DNA from: Candidatus Kuenenia stuttgartensis
GTDB lineage: Bacteria > Planctomycetota > Planctomycetia > Pirellulales > UBA1268
DNA: 36,054 nt
Assembly (NCBI GenBank): GCA_945890755.1
Contig: CAMDDA010000010.1
Span: 1 to 36,054 of the forward strand
Direction of reading: 5' to 3'
Shown: positions 5,380 through 17,915 of the stretch, piece by piece
How the letters are laid out: every line of letters begins with the position of its first letter
Numbering within the stretch: the stretch's first letter is position 1
The notes under the pieces: generated by a model
Told to the model about the DNA's origin: nothing
The model's database searches: none
The model's input: the letters and a program-made list of their open reading frames with translations, nothing else
Position numbers and translations under genes: made by a program

Positions 5380-5563
5380 GTAGGCCTGTTGCTCCGCAAC
5401 GGGCTGCCCGTCCTCCCGTAGGCCTGTTGCTCCGCAACGGGCTGCCCGCCCCCCGTAGGCCTGTTGCTCCGCAACGGGCTGCCCGTCCTCCCGTAGGCCT
5501 GTTGCTCCGCAACGGGCTGCCCGTCACGGAGTGACGGGCCTACAACTCCGTGACGGGCCTACA
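5380..5563. repeat. Cluster of tandem hairpin repeats (4 units plus 2 variants)
   Basis: Four near-identical units of 37-38 bp begin at 5380, 5418, 5455 and 5493. Each opens with GTAGGCCTGTTGC and contains a TCC loop between the TTGC and GCAA arms, then GGGCTGCCCG and a C-rich tail. The fourth unit runs into a different hairpin, GCCCGTCAC / GTGACGGGC around GGA at 5519-5539, and a further CCGTGACGGGCCTAC copy ends at 5563. The cluster fills the gap between the convergent Coa1-like gene and ktrA and could act as a bidirectional terminator or be a REP/BIME-like mobile repeat. The same family recurs at 17654-17739. It is not a CRISPR array because there are no unique spacers. Confidence 0.9.
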
Positions 5564-10112: not shown

Positions 10113-12494
10113 ATGCTGCTTCGTCGTTCAACCTTCCCCCTGCTGCGATCGCTGATCAGCGCCGCCTGGGCACTCACGGCCTGCGCGACGGCATCGGCTG
10201 CCGACTGGCCCGACTGGCGCGGCCCACAGCAGAACCGCCACTACGCCGGTCCGCCGCTCGTCACGACGTTCGATCCGGAGAAGAACACGAACGTCGTCTG
10301 GACGAACGACGAGGCGGGGGGCATCTCGACGCCCGTGATCATGGGCGGCAAGCTGTTTACGATCGTGCGGCACAAGCCCGGCACAGTCGAAGAGGCCGAG
10401 AAAGTGCTCTGCCTCGATGCCGCGACCGGCACAAAGCTCTGGGAGAACGTGTTCAACGTCTATCTCTCCGACGTGCCGGCCGAGCGGGTCGGCTGGTCGG
10501 CCGTCGTCGCCGATCCGGCATCGAACACCGTCTTTGCCCACGGCGTATGCGGCGTGTTCACGGCGATCGACGCGGCGACCGGCACGGCGAAGTGGCAGCG
10601 GTCGCTGCACGAAGAGTTCGGCTTTCTTTCCACCTATGGCGGCCGCACGAACATCCCCGTGGTGTTCGAGGATCTCGTCATCGCCAGCGCCGTCGTGACC
10701 GGCTGGGGCGACACGGCCCGCCCGGCGCATCGCTTCCTGGGGATGGACAAGGCCACGGGCGTCGTCCGCTGGATGAATGGCACGAAGGAACTACCCGAAG
10801 ACACGACCTACAGCACGCCGTCACTGGCCGACTTCGACGGCACAGCTGCCCTTGTCTTTGGTTCGAGCGACGGCAGTGTCTGGAACTTTCAGCCGCGGAC
10901 GGGCAAGGCCGTCTGGAACTTCAAGCTCTCACGCCGTGGCATCAATACCGCGCCGCTCATCGACGGCGACACGGTGATCGTCTCGCAGTCGGAAGAGAAC
11001 CTCGACAACACCTCGATGGGCTCGGCGACCGTGTTCAAGGCGGCCGGCATGGGCGACATCACCGCCACGGCCGCGATCTGGCAGAAGAAGGCCGTGATGG
11101 ACGGCCGATCGATGCCCGTCGTGCTCGGCGACCGCATCTATTTTGTGGATGACGGCGCGAAGGTCTACGCCTTCGACAAGGCGACGGGCTCGGCAGTCGG
11201 ACGGCCGCAGAAACTACTCGGCACGATCGTCCGCGGCAGCCCGCTCGTGGCGGATGGCAAACTCTACGTCTGCTCGACGAGCGGCTGGCACGTGCTCGAG
11301 CCGACGGCCGAGGGCGTGAAGTTCGTGAACCGGATGCGGTTCGACGAGGAGGACGAGGTGACGGCCTCGCCGATCGCCGCCAATGGACTGCTCTATCTGA
11401 CGACCGGCACCCGCCTCTACTGCCTCGGCACGCGGGCACTGCCGGATCAGAGCGGACCTGCCGCCTCTGCTCGGCCGGAAACAGTCTCGGCGGCCACGAA
11501 AGATCCGGCAGACGAGCCGGCCTGGGTGCAGATCGTTCCCGCCGAGGCGCAGATCGCCGCGGGCGAAACCCTGCAGCTCAAGGCGAGGCTCTTCGACGCC
11601 GCGGGCCGGTTCGTGAAGGAATCGCCGGCTGAGTTCGCGACGACGGTCGGCACGGTGTCAAGCGACGGCACCTACACGGCACCGGCCGGACAGCATGCGG
11701 CGGCGATCGTCACCGCGAAGGTCGGCAGCCTCGCGGGCAGGGCGCGGATCCGGTCGATGCCGCCGCTGCCGTGGCAGTTCGACTTCGAGGAGATCCCGCT
11801 CGCGGCCGACCCGAAGACGGGCGTCGTCAAAGGCGAGCCGCCGCTGCCGTGGATCGGCATGCGGTATCGCCACGTCGTCCGCGAGGTCGATGGCTCGAAG
11901 TGCCTCGTGAAGGTGACCACGATCCCCAAGGGCACTCGGAGCCAGGGCTGGATCGGGCCGATCGGGCTGCACGACTATTGTGTCCGGGCCGATGTCCGGG
12001 CCCGGGAGACGGGCGTGGGCAAGCCGGGCGATCCAGCTTCAGTCACGCAGAAGCCGGCCTCCACCGCATCGCAACCCCGCACCACCGACGCCGATGCCTT
12101 CACGAAGGCGTTCGGCAATCCGGCGGCGCTCGAGAAGGCCCGGATGCCCGACATCGGACTCATCGCCCAGCGGTATACGCTCGACCTGATGGGTGCGGCG
12201 CAACAGTTGCAACTGCGATCGTGGCCGCCGCAGGTGGCGACGCACTTCTCGAAGACGATCCCGTTTGCCTGGGAGGCCGGCCGCTGGTACTCCATGAAGC
12301 TCGAGGCCCGCACGTCGGGGCAGTCGGCGGTGCTTCGCGGCAAGGTCTGGCCACGGGGCGAGGCGGAACCCGAGGCCTGGACTATTCATGCCACGCATGC
12401 CGCGGGCAATCTCCAGGGCAGCCCCGGCTTCTTCGGCAACTCGAAAGACTCCGAGATTTACATCGACAACGTGTCCGTGGAGGCTGTGGAATGA
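10113..12494 (+). CDS. Exported PQQ-type beta-propeller protein with Ig-like and C-terminal beta domain
   Basis: This 793-residue protein has a signal peptide (residues 1-30, ending TASA) and begins DWPDWRGPQQNR, the W-x-x-W-R-G-P opening typical of planctomycete PQQ-repeat (BamB-like) propellers. Propeller strands such as TPVIMGGKLFTIV, GSPLVADGKLYVCS and ASPIAANGLLYLTTG recur to about residue 455. Residues 469-548 look like a bacterial Ig-like domain (WVQIVPAEAQIAAGETLQLK to GTYTAPAG). The remaining 245 residues contain a lectin-like/LamG-type beta region (WIGPIGLHDYCVRADVRA, WYSMKLEART, SEIYIDNVSVE). No catalytic quinoprotein-dehydrogenase disulfide motif was noticed, so structural or binding roles are as likely as enzymatic. 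GGAG 10 bases upstream supports the start. The TGA stop overlaps the next start as ATGATGA. Confidence 0.88.
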   Translation: MLLRRSTFPLLRSLISAAWALTACATASAADWPDWRGPQQNRHYAGPPLVTTFDPEKNTNVVWTNDEAGGISTPVIMGGKLFTIVRHKPGTVEEAEKVLCLDAATGTKLWENVFNVYLSDVPAERVGWSAVVADPASNTVFAHGVCGVFTAIDAATGTAKWQRSLHEEFGFLSTYGGRTNIPVVFEDLVIASAVVTGWGDTARPAHRFLGMDKATGVVRWMNGTKELPEDTTYSTPSLADFDGTAALVFGSSDGSVWNFQPRTGKAVWNFKLSRRGINTAPLIDGDTVIVSQSEENLDNTSMGSATVFKAAGMGDITATAAIWQKKAVMDGRSMPVVLGDRIYFVDDGAKVYAFDKATGSAVGRPQKLLGTIVRGSPLVADGKLYVCSTSGWHVLEPTAEGVKFVNRMRFDEEDEVTASPIAANGLLYLTTGTRLYCLGTRALPDQSGPAASARPETVSAATKDPADEPAWVQIVPAEAQIAAGETLQLKARLFDAAGRFVKESPAEFATTVGTVSSDGTYTAPAGQHAAAIVTAKVGSLAGRARIRSMPPLPWQFDFEEIPLAADPKTGVVKGEPPLPWIGMRYRHVVREVDGSKCLVKVTTIPKGTRSQGWIGPIGLHDYCVRADVRARETGVGKPGDPASVTQKPASTASQPRTTDADAFTKAFGNPAALEKARMPDIGLIAQRYTLDLMGAAQQLQLRSWPPQVATHFSKTIPFAWEAGRWYSMKLEARTSGQSAVLRGKVWPRGEAEPEAWTIHATHAAGNLQGSPGFFGNSKDSEIYIDNVSVEAVE

Positions 12495-14311
12495 TGAAGC
12501 CGCGAATGGAAAAGCAGCCGACTCGTTGGATGAGCGGGGTTGCCCCTACCGGTGAGCCGGCGTTGGCGGCAAGCGAAGGCAGGATGCCGAGAGCGCAGCC
12601 GCCATCGAGCGAGCGAAGGACAGGATGTCCGAAGCGAGCGTCCGGCGAGACGGTAGGGGCAACCCCGCGCGCGGCGCCAGCCAAGGTGGCTCTTGCCTTG
12701 ATCCTGACTGCGCTGCCGCTCACGGCAAGCGCGAGCGACTGGAATCAGTGGGGGGGCTCACCGGTCCGCAACAATGTGTCGCCGGCGAAGAACATCCCGG
12801 CCGAGTGGACGCCTGGCGACTTCGACCCCTCAACCGGCGCCTGGAAACCCGAGACGAGCCAGAACGTGGCCTGGGTGGCGGCGCTCGGCAGCCAGAGTTA
12901 CGGCAATCCGGTCGTCGCCGGCGGCAAGGCCTACGTCGGCACCAACAATGGCAAGGGCTGGCTGAAGCGGTATCCCCCCGAGGTCGATCTCGGGTGTCTC
13001 GTGGCCTTCGACATCGAGGATGGCTCGTTCCTGTGGCAGGATTCGAGCGAGAAGCTGCCGACAGGCCGCGTGCACGATTGGCCGCTCCAGGGCATCTGCT
13101 GCGCGCCGCTCGTGGAGGGAGACCGGCTCTGGTACGTGACGAGCCGAGGCGAGGTGAAGTGCCTCGACACCGAGGGCTTCCGCGATGGCGAGAACGACGG
13201 GCCGTTCACCGCCGAGAAGGTCCAGCAGCAGGACGAGGCCGACGTCGTCTGGGTGCTCGACATGATGAAGCAGCTCGGCGTCTCGCAGCACAACATGTGC
13301 TCGTGCAGCGTGACGACCGCGGGTGACTTCCTGTTCGTCAACACGAGCAACGGCGTGGACGAGGGGCACATCAATTTGCCCAACGCCGAGGCCCCGAGCT
13401 TCCTCTGCATCGACAAGCGCGACGGCACGGTGCTGTGGGCCGACAACACGCCCGGCGCCAACGTGCTCCACGGCCAGTGGTCGAGCCCGGCCTACGCCGA
13501 GCTCGGCGGCGTGCCGCAGGTGATCTTCGGCGGTGGCGACGGCTGGATCTACGCCTTCGACGCCCGCGGCGAGAACGGCCGGTCGAAGAAGCTCTGGGAG
13601 TTCGACTGCAACCCGAAGGAATCGAAGTACACGCTCGGCGGCCGGGCCGATCGCAATCACATCATCGGCACGCCCGTCGTGCACGACGGGCTCGTCTACG
13701 TGGCCGTGGGCGAAGATCCGGAGCACGGCGAGGGCGTGGGGCACCTGTGGTGCATCGATCCGACGAAGCGGGGCGACGTGTCGAGCGAACTGGCCGTGAG
13801 CCTGAAGGATCCGACGCAGCCCCTGCCCCGCCGCCGCGAGCAGGCCGTGATCAAGGAGCAGGGCGAGGTGACCAGGCCCAATCCTGCCTCGGCCGCCGTC
13901 TGGCACTATCCCGGCTTCGACGCCGACAAAAACGGCAAGCTCGACTTCGAGGAAACGATGCATCGCACGTGCGGCACCGTGGCGATCGCCGACGGGCTCT
14001 TGTTCGTGGCCGACTTCAGCGGCCTCTTCCACTGCCTCGACCTGAAGACGGGCAAACCGCTCTGGACCCACGACATGCTCGCCGCCAGCTGGGGATCGCC
14101 CCTGATCGTGGACGGCAAGGTCTACATCGGTGACGAGGACGGCGACATCTCCATCTTCAAGCTCGCGCGCGACAAGGACCTGCTCGCGGAGATCAACATG
14201 GGCAACAGCGTCTACTCCACGCCGATCGTCGCCGGCGACACGCTCTACATCGCCAACAAGAGCCATCTCTTCGCCATTCGGGCCGGAGCCACTCCGGTCG
14301 CCGTGCCATGA
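12494..14311 (+). CDS. Exported PQQ-type beta-propeller protein with EF-hand loop and repeat-derived N-terminus
   Basis: The start overlaps the previous stop (ATGs at 12491 and 12494), indicating coupling. The 605-residue product has an odd N-terminus: 13 basic residues, then 45 residues encoded by the palindromic element at 12534-12668, then a normal signal-peptide core (VALALILTALPLTASA, residues 65-80) and the propeller, which opens SDWNQWGGSPVRNN. Propeller strands include GNPVVAGGKAYVGTNNG, CAPLVEGDRLWYVTSRG, GTPVVHDGLVYVAVG and GSPLIVDGKVYIGDEDG. A canonical EF-hand calcium loop, DADKNGKLDFEE, occupies residues 476-487 between blades. If the element disrupts export from the early start, GTG at 12686 could start a short signal peptide, but it has no ribosome binding site and no basic n-region. 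The downstream gene overlaps it by 4 bp. Confidence 0.87.
   Translation: MKPRMEKQPTRWMSGVAPTGEPALAASEGRMPRAQPPSSERRTGCPKRASGETVGATPRAAPAKVALALILTALPLTASASDWNQWGGSPVRNNVSPAKNIPAEWTPGDFDPSTGAWKPETSQNVAWVAALGSQSYGNPVVAGGKAYVGTNNGKGWLKRYPPEVDLGCLVAFDIEDGSFLWQDSSEKLPTGRVHDWPLQGICCAPLVEGDRLWYVTSRGEVKCLDTEGFRDGENDGPFTAEKVQQQDEADVVWVLDMMKQLGVSQHNMCSCSVTTAGDFLFVNTSNGVDEGHINLPNAEAPSFLCIDKRDGTVLWADNTPGANVLHGQWSSPAYAELGGVPQVIFGGGDGWIYAFDARGENGRSKKLWEFDCNPKESKYTLGGRADRNHIIGTPVVHDGLVYVAVGEDPEHGEGVGHLWCIDPTKRGDVSSELAVSLKDPTQPLPRRREQAVIKEQGEVTRPNPASAAVWHYPGFDADKNGKLDFEETMHRTCGTVAIADGLLFVADFSGLFHCLDLKTGKPLWTHDMLAASWGSPLIVDGKVYIGDEDGDISIFKLARDKDLLAEINMGNSVYSTPIVAGDTLYIANKSHLFAIRAGATPVAVP
12534..12668. repeat. 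135-bp palindromic element inserted in frame within a coding sequence
   Basis: The termini are perfect 18-bp inverted repeats: 12534-12551 begins GCGGGGTTGCCCC, and 12651-12668 is its exact complement. Inside are two related segments, 12573-12595 and 12613-12636, each a small hairpin around AGGAT with arms GGC/GCC in one and GGAC/GTCC in the other. The element is 135 bp, a multiple of three, and contains no stop in the frame of the PQQ-type gene, so it adds 45 codons. It lies between the start codon and the signal-peptide core. No target-site duplication is evident. It looks like a small non-autonomous palindromic repeat. Confidence 0.8.
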
Positions 14312-15971: not shown

Positions 15972-17657
15972 ATGCGACTGCGTCATGCGTTCCTCGCCGC
16001 CCTCATAGCCTACGGTGCCTTCATCACTGCCGCAGCGGCGGCCGACACCGTGCCCGCCGACACGCTCCTGAAGGCCCAGCGAGTCGCCGTGCTCGGCGAC
16101 TCGATCACGTATGGCGGCGACTGGGTTGCCGAACTCATCGCCTGGATGGAACGAAACGGAACCGCAGCCCAGGTGATCGACGTGGGCCTGCCGAGCGAGA
16201 CGGTGTCGGGACTGTCCGAGGACGGGCATGCGGGTGGAAAGTTTCCGCGGCCCGATCTCTTCGAGCGGCTCGATCGCGTGCTGCGGGTCGTGCGGCCCGA
16301 CGTGGTGCTCGCCTGCTACGGTATGAACTGCGGCATCTACCAGCCACTCGACGACGAGCGATTCGCGCGGTTCAAGGCGGGCATCGAGCGGCTGCACGAC
16401 ACCGTGGCGAAGACCGGGGCCACGATCATCCACCTCACGCCTCCGGTGTACGACAAGCGGCCCGACAAGCCGGGGCCGGCCGGTGACGCCGACTACGACG
16501 CCGTGCTCGACACCTACTCGAACTGGCTCGTGTCGAAGCGGGCTGACGGCTGGCTCGTGATCGACGTGCATGGACCGATGCGGGAGATGCTGGCCGCGGC
16601 CCGGGCGAAGGACGCGGGCGTTGTGTTTGCCCCCGATACAGTGCATCCCAATCCGCAGGGCCACTGGGCGATCTGCCGTGCCGTCCTCCGCGGCCTCGGC
16701 GACGATGCGATGGCTGCCGCCGACACACCCACGGCTCTCGATCCCTTCCTGCCCGAGGTCACCCAGCGGATGCAGCTGCTTCGCGACGCCTATCTCTCGG
16801 CAGCCGGCCACCAGCGGCCCGGCATGAAGGTCGGCCTGCCGATCGCCGAAGCGGAGGCGAAGGCCCGAACGCTCACCGATTCAATTCGCTCCCGGCGGCT
16901 CCAGCTCAGTGGCACGAAGCACCCCAGCGGCGAGTGGCGGATCCCGATCGAGTGGCCGCGGCCCAAGGCCGTCGATCCCGGTCCCCCGCCGAGCGGCCCC
17001 GTACCCGCACCCGCCGATGCCGTCGTGCTCTTCGACGGCACGAATCTCGACCAGTGGAACGGGGCCGGCGATTGGAAGGTCGCCGATGGCGTGGCGACGG
17101 TCGGCAAGGGGGCGATCTCCACGAAGCAGCCGTTCGGCGACTGCCAGCTGCACCTCGAATTCCGGATGCCGAGTCCGGCACGGGGCAAGGGCCAGGGCCG
17201 CGGCAATTCCGGCGTCTTCCTGATGGGCGAATACGAGATCCAGGTGCTCGACTCCTACGAGGACGGCACCGACGGTCCGCTCACCTATCCCGACGGCCAG
17301 TGCGGCGCCCTCTACAAGCAGCAGCCACCGGCCGTGAACGCCTGCCGCAAACCGGGCGAATGGCAGACGTACGACATCCTCTTCACACGACCGCGGTTCC
17401 ATGCCGACGGCTCGCTCGCCGCGCCGGCCCGCGTGAGCATGCTCCACAACGGCATCGCCATTCACTCAGACACCGTGATCAAGGGCAACACGTTCTGGCA
17501 TGCACCGCCCGGCTACACGAAGCACGCCGACGCCCTGCCGATCACGCTGCAGGACCACGGCAACCCGGTGCAGTTCCGCTCGATCTGGGTGCGGCCCTTC
17601 GAGCCGGTCAGGCCGCGATTGTCTTCCGTCACACCCGGTTCCGTCACCGCCCCGTAG
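15972..17657 (+). CDS. Exported SGNH hydrolase fused to a 3-keto-disaccharide hydrolase (DUF1080) domain
   Basis: A 561-residue two-domain exported protein. After a signal peptide (residues 1-24) comes an SGNH/GDSL esterase-type domain with the nucleophile motif GDSIT (Ser44), the block III region CYGMNCG (Asn119) and the catalytic DTVHP (Asp222, His225). Residues about 349-551 form a DUF1080 / 3-keto-disaccharide-hydrolase-type lectin-like domain: VVLFDGTNLDQWNG, GNSGVFLMGEYEIQVLDSY, CGALYKQQPPAVNACRKPGEW and ITLQDHGNPVQFRSIWVRP. Both halves look intact, so the protein may deacetylate or de-esterify and then bind or cleave a polysaccharide; the substrate is not evident. It is last in the five-gene exported cluster. 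The TAG stop is part of the first hairpin repeat that follows. Confidence 0.9.
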   Translation: MRLRHAFLAALIAYGAFITAAAAADTVPADTLLKAQRVAVLGDSITYGGDWVAELIAWMERNGTAAQVIDVGLPSETVSGLSEDGHAGGKFPRPDLFERLDRVLRVVRPDVVLACYGMNCGIYQPLDDERFARFKAGIERLHDTVAKTGATIIHLTPPVYDKRPDKPGPAGDADYDAVLDTYSNWLVSKRADGWLVIDVHGPMREMLAAARAKDAGVVFAPDTVHPNPQGHWAICRAVLRGLGDDAMAAADTPTALDPFLPEVTQRMQLLRDAYLSAAGHQRPGMKVGLPIAEAEAKARTLTDSIRSRRLQLSGTKHPSGEWRIPIEWPRPKAVDPGPPPSGPVPAPADAVVLFDGTNLDQWNGAGDWKVADGVATVGKGAISTKQPFGDCQLHLEFRMPSPARGKGQGRGNSGVFLMGEYEIQVLDSYEDGTDGPLTYPDGQCGALYKQQPPAVNACRKPGEWQTYDILFTRPRFHADGSLAAPARVSMLHNGIAIHSDTVIKGNTFWHAPPGYTKHADALPITLQDHGNPVQFRSIWVRPFEPVRPRLSSVTPGSVTAP

Positions 17658-17739
17658 GCCCGTCACTCCGTGATGGGCACTCTTCTCCGGTCACGGCATG
17701 ACGGGCTCCTTGCTGCCCGTTGCGGAGCAACGGGCCTAC
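17654..17739. repeat. Second hairpin-repeat cluster, downstream of the SGNH/DUF1080 gene
   Basis: Two hairpins face each other. 17654-17678 opens GTAGGCCCGTCAC, has a TCC loop and closes GTGATGGGC. 17715-17739 has perfect 9-bp arms GCCCGTTGC and GCAACGGGC around GGA and ends CCTAC. They belong to the same family as 5380-5563 and include both stem versions (TTGC/GCAA and TCAC/GTGA). A run of six T follows at about 17750. The first unit supplies the stop codon of the upstream gene. The cluster may serve as a transcription terminator for the long exported-protein operon. The rest of the gap to 17915 shows nothing I recognise. Confidence 0.85.
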
Positions 17740-17915
17740 AACGACGAGATTTTTTCGATTTCGCGTAACCGCTTGCGACGGCGGCGGTTGATCGCATCGT
17801 GAAGCGACGTAAGTCGAGATACGCCGTCGGCTCGCACCAGCCGACCACTTGCAGCCGACGCGTCCCGGCCATTCAATCGGCACCTCGTTCCCTTCACTTA
17901 CGGATGAGGTGCAGC

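Follow-up and report, generated by a model that had tools for sequence, protein, structure and literature searches.

A palindromic repeat in the leader of an exported protein in the analyzed window belongs to a non-autonomous, high-copy family that is confined to one family of uncultured planctomycetes. In this leader, the selfish-looking DNA appears to be tolerated as translated filler ahead of an export signal, to judge by the reading frame that runs through it. By window we mean the whole stretch of DNA that was analyzed, contig C10 (36,054 nucleotides); the draft genome to which it belongs, 3.44 Mb in 309 contigs, is referred to as the source genome (G000).

The element and its host gene

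The sequence-only reading had described an element with perfect inverted arms and two internal hairpins, inserted in frame and free of stops behind a start codon coupled to the previous gene. On recheck, position, length and arms proved correct, both hairpins were found where expected, the start codon does overlap the upstream stop, and the host frame is open over its entire length (Table 1). The hydrophobic core (VALALILTALPLTASA) comes after the element, which therefore lies ahead of the signal peptide, as had been proposed, and the mature part of the protein follows in frame from about position 12740. Translation through the element would yield peptides such as MPRAQPPSSER and GVAPTGEPALAASEGR. 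The leader comprises about 83 codons, versus about 22-30 in uninserted orthologues. The idea that removal of the element would leave a normal n-region held in part: uninserted orthologues do have ordinary short leaders, but the window leader is still somewhat long when the 45 codons are subtracted.

Table 1. Coordinates of the repeat, its substructures and the flanking coding features in the window
Feature	Position	Strand	Remarks
Palindromic repeat, 135 bp in window copy	12534..12668	+	family core 131 bp = 12536-12666
Left arm, perfect 18-bp inverted repeat	12534..12551	+	
Right arm, perfect 18-bp inverted repeat	12651..12668	+	
Internal hairpin 1, GGCAGGATGCC, in-frame ATG inside	12578..12588	+	stem covaries, loop conserved
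Internal hairpin 2, GGACAGGATGTCC	12618..12630	+	stem covaries, GGATG conserved
Host ORF, exported PQQ/BamB-type beta-propeller protein, 45 leader codons from element	12491..14311	+	PF13360, E 1.8e-20
Upstream PQQ-type gene, stop codon overlaps host start codon	10113..12494	+	
Signal-peptide hydrophobic core and cleavage region, VALALILTALPLTASASD	12686..12739	+	judged by eye

The minimum free energy of the window element is -89.6 kcal/mol, compared with -54.7 +/- 3.5 kcal/mol for shuffled sequences (z -10), and both internal hairpins present GGA loops. The conserved unit of the family measures about 131 bp (GGGG...CCCC), with copies of 131-135 letters and termini that read GTGAGGGGYTGCCC. The outer GC/GC pair is limited to the window copy and its orthologue in genome G008; the flanks differ in other copies.

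Copy number, taxonomic range and location

A DNA search of the source genome recovered the repeat in about 40 places and in both orientations, often at contig ends. With a covariance model derived from 22 of the copies, 64 matches were obtained at E<=1e-3 in the same draft, so the repeat is dispersed and the concern that the sequence might be found nowhere else in the genome falls away. The model matched 34 of 60 genomes sampled, every one of them in a single taxonomic family (f1, 34 of 37 members), in which copies per genome reach at least 56. It found nothing in 23 genomes from other families of the order, nor in 147 genomes outside family f1 in a class-wide sample. Among the matches listed, the named GTDB contigs come from MAGs whose labels give planctomycetes or merely "bacterium". 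Viral contigs did not contain the exact pattern of the repeat and plasmids did not contain a similar sequence, which speaks against carriage by phages or plasmids. Rfam at gathering score returned no match within the window, so we also dismissed a known RNA family as the identity of the repeat. Like a MITE, the repeat combines a short unit, terminal inverted repeats and many copies with the absence of a transposase of its own. Filled and empty orthologous sites were both found, with flanks and leaders too diverged for a target duplication to be read. A limited literature search found no published description of this repeat family.

When genes were called with a simple dicodon gene finder, 171 of 175 copies turned out to be intergenic. 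The gaps that hold them are strongly biased toward convergent gene pairs (55 convergent versus 6 divergent, compared with 63 versus 62 for control gaps of at least 150 bp; p 4e-8), and copies are nearer to neighbouring 3' ends (median 57 nt) than to 5' ends (117 nt). Between tandem genes, the GGA strand is sense in 21 and antisense in 36 of 57 settings (p 0.06). Elsewhere in the sample we saw no clear case of a gene with the repeat in frame. Where the frame of another copy does stay open into the adjacent gene, an ATG or GTG start codon is mostly available downstream of the copy; a general coding habit of the repeat was rejected.

Some copies have company. A conserved module (CCACAGGAGGTCGACCCGCGGAGGAATAGACGGGCCTGCGG..., with the extended right flank CCACAGGAGG...) adjoins 20 of 104 copies, for example at L221, L225 and L258, which suggests that the right-flank sequence CCACAGGAGG... 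is a second repeat module outside the core and that composite repeat mosaics exist. Partial tandem duplicates of the left arm lie beside full copies in the left flank of L213 and in the G009 leader (L156), where the duplicate is also in frame. In genome G008, another repeat, about 90 bp long (ATTTTGACGTCGCACGCTCAACTGATGTGGTCCGCC...GTCAAAAT), is dispersed over about 15-20 places.

Insertions in orthologous leaders

Of 60 family genomes, 57 have an orthologue of the host gene, as do 13 of the 14 genomes in a second set that adds members of the genus. Most of these orthologues lack the element, and indeed any insert; their leaders are short, often 22-30 residues, with an ATG that typically overlaps the upstream stop, and precise boundaries of the insertion are blurred because leaders diverge fast. 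The element is present in the leader of five orthologues, in + orientation in G000, G008, G076 and G009, and in - orientation in G014. In the gene tree, G000/G008, G076, G009 and G014 occupy four separate branches, with neighbours that are uninserted or differently inserted. At least four independent insertions, one of them reversed, are suggested by the placement in this one gene tree, for which no support values were reported, together with the opposite orientation in G014.

None of the five element-bearing leaders has a stop within the element, and in each of them the element continues the frame set by the ATG that overlaps the upstream stop; among the orthologues examined none carries it out of frame. 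With the stop codons of other copies taken into account, the chance that four insertions would all be in frame and free of stops is about 0.004. In G016 (L174) and G021 (L176), a different, unrelated palindrome (AAAAAGGTGCCAGCCACCTTTTGCCG...AAAAGGTGGCTGGCACCTTTTT) resides in the same leader, also in frame; in G021, its left part (AAAAAGGTGCCAGCCACCTTTTGCCG...) is duplicated.

Differences among the three + copies are evenly spread over the codon positions (9/6/7, 12/11/10 and 6/9/6), which led us to reject a coding constraint on the element peptide. The peptide looks like a translated spacer with no visible sequence conservation. Protein-level conservation in distant orthologues, a finding that would have spoken against an inserted element, was not seen: the copies in G076 and G009 are apparently separate insertions with this same even spread of differences. 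The leader can thus be regarded as a natural replicate experiment, with about four independent in-frame insertions in both orientations to be set against many uninserted orthologues.

Fold and exchange between copies

The copies of the repeat have a common Y-shaped fold, for which RNAalifold analysis of 22 copies found 44 consensus pairs, 11 of them with two-sided compensation. A pair census over two species, with 103 unique copies, counted 4322 Watson-Crick, 103 G-T, 8 A-C and 46 other pairs. As G-T and A-C pairs represent one kind of change viewed from opposite strands, the 13-fold asymmetry between them (103:8) points to folding of the + strand, the strand with the GGATG loops. Judged by this composition, the + strand would be the folded form of the repeat, which fits RNA and single-stranded DNA alike.

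The source genome and G008 have 18 repeat sites in common, with flanks that are about 91.5% identical overall. The pair changes at these sites comprise 48 double-compensated, 17 wobble and 18 broken pairs, and 9 of the 18 broken pairs fall in one decayed copy. At 12 of the 18 sites, the orthologue is less close than other copies are, in both directions of comparison, while the flanks are about 90% identical. One further site (L004/L273) has a different repeat variant between well conserved flanks. Copies thus seem to be exchanged at fixed genomic places, with the proviso that draft MAGs often break at the repeat, so that assembly chimeras are possible. The window copy is a contrary case, with 148 identical bases (12528-12675) between the source genome and G008 and flanks that are about 90% identical.

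Explanations for the insertion and the fold

Our data suggest a model that we consider probable, in which a non-autonomous, family-restricted repeat that normally resides behind gene 3' ends survives in this leader only when in frame, and is translated from the coupled start as a tolerated n-region filler. The repeat would normally settle just behind the 3' ends of genes, perhaps after its single-stranded + strand form has been recognised or copied, as the strand-specific folding suggests. Because the start codon of the host gene overlaps the stop of its neighbour, the spot just past the upstream gene falls within the leader codons of the next protein, and an element landing about 40 nt past the stop would become part of that leader. 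Only insertions that are in frame and free of stops would survive, because ribosomes presumably initiate at the coupled start codon and read on through the element. The 45 residues that it encodes would then lengthen the n-region by a mildly basic stretch, which is presumably removed together with the signal peptide.

Alternatively, the true start could lie within the element or beyond it, for instance at GTG 12686 or the ATG of hairpin 1, the element being an ordinary intergenic copy and the open upstream frame a coincidence. The almost exclusively intergenic location elsewhere agrees with such a downstream start, as does a codon-usage gene model that begins after the element, and in-frame starts are indeed available. 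We nevertheless think it unlikely, since each of the five orthologues with the element has a frame that stays open from the stop-overlapping ATG through the insert, at the low chance given above for four events, and since in G076 the sole start between element and core is a TTG at -42 that would leave almost no n-region. An identity of the repeat as a regulatory RNA element, with the GGA-loop hairpins as putative CsrA binding sites, draws on loops that read CA(N)GGATG, covarying stems, an excess of G-T pairs on the GGA strand and four CsrA genes in the source genome (on contigs C288, C137, C28 and C39). The missing sense bias between tandem genes argues against an mRNA element that acts upon read-through, such as a CsrA site, and against a CsrA sponge; we hold the regulatory reading to be highly improbable. 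Mobilisation as a REP/REPIN by a RAYT-type Y1 transposase fares hardly better and is very unlikely in our opinion. The hairpins are strand-specific and two Y1-like ORFs exist in the source genome, but the repeat shows no GTAG/CGTC tag, the RAYT-like one of the two, on contig C105, was inspected closely and has a different, GTAG-tagged repeat on either side but no copy of the 131-135-bp repeat nearby, and copy number is uncoupled from Y1 matches (Spearman 0.12 over 34 genomes): several genomes without a Y1 match have at least 56 copies, and G022, with four Y1 matches, has none.

A further alternative concerns the fold and is compatible with translation from the coupled start. The compensatory changes might stem from copy-to-copy conversion, re-insertion or hairpin-templated repair of the DNA palindrome, and not from selection on a folded molecule. 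The 12 shared sites at which other copies are closer than the orthologue, between flanks that remain similar, are what such processes would leave behind, and at L004/L273 the exchange is directly visible; conversion alone does not, however, explain the strand asymmetry of G-T over A-C pairs, and we regard this alternative as plausible without quite calling it probable. The 18 shared sites, the compensatory changes and the asymmetry together constitute a data set with which fold selection can be weighed against inter-copy conversion. More speculatively, and with considerable doubt on our side, the leader might be a standing, recurrent acceptor of unrelated palindromes that enter in frame, independently and in either orientation, while the members of the repeat family are maintained in a one-strand fold at fixed sites as they exchange sequence; this would imply an active, strand-specific homogenising machinery that has not yet been described.

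Relation to known repeats

The sequence-only reading had likened the element to the palindromic elements of Rickettsia (RPEs), multi-copy palindromes of about 100-150 bp that are found in frame in protein genes and are apparently translated (PMC10969869, PMC2229807). Compared by description, the planctomycete repeat is likewise palindromic, multi-copy and in frame in a protein gene, and the likeness stands for an in-frame repeat ahead of a signal peptide at one gene, apparently on recurrent occasions. It does not extend to the family as a whole, since RPEs occur in frame in many unrelated genes and the planctomycete repeat clearly does so in one gene only. In size, palindromy and intergenic location, the repeat resembles descriptions of ERIC, a long imperfect palindrome with tens to hundreds of intergenic copies that is limited to certain bacterial families (PMC10969869), but it has another host lineage, a three-way fold and two conserved GGATG hairpins. 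At one gene, a repeat that is otherwise intergenic and ERIC/MITE-like behaves like an RPE. A precedent in an export leader is YPAL/RU-2 of Yersinia, a 168-bp palindromic repeat that in one copy is part of the signal peptide of exported YPO1552 (PMC2229807). In that case the signal peptide is itself built partly from the repeat, whereas the planctomycete repeat precedes an existing one and has seemingly been inserted recurrently in several species. Repeats that enter coding sequence have so far been best known from Rickettsia and enterobacteria, and the family described here adds a planctomycete example.

REP/REPIN sequences are also high-copy hairpins between genes, but the planctomycete repeat lacks their tag tetranucleotide, is about four times longer and has no Y1 gene association here. 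GTAG repeats have been reported for Planctomycetes (PMC3733652) and also occur in the source genome. In the window, clusters of GTAG-tagged, REP-like hairpins (GTAGGCCTGTTGCTCCGCAACGGGCTGCCCG) are located at 5380-5561 and 17641-17749, and a GTAG-type repeat as in the window flanks the RAYT-like Y1 gene of contig C105 on both sides (L209, about 1185-1430 and about 2205-2290).
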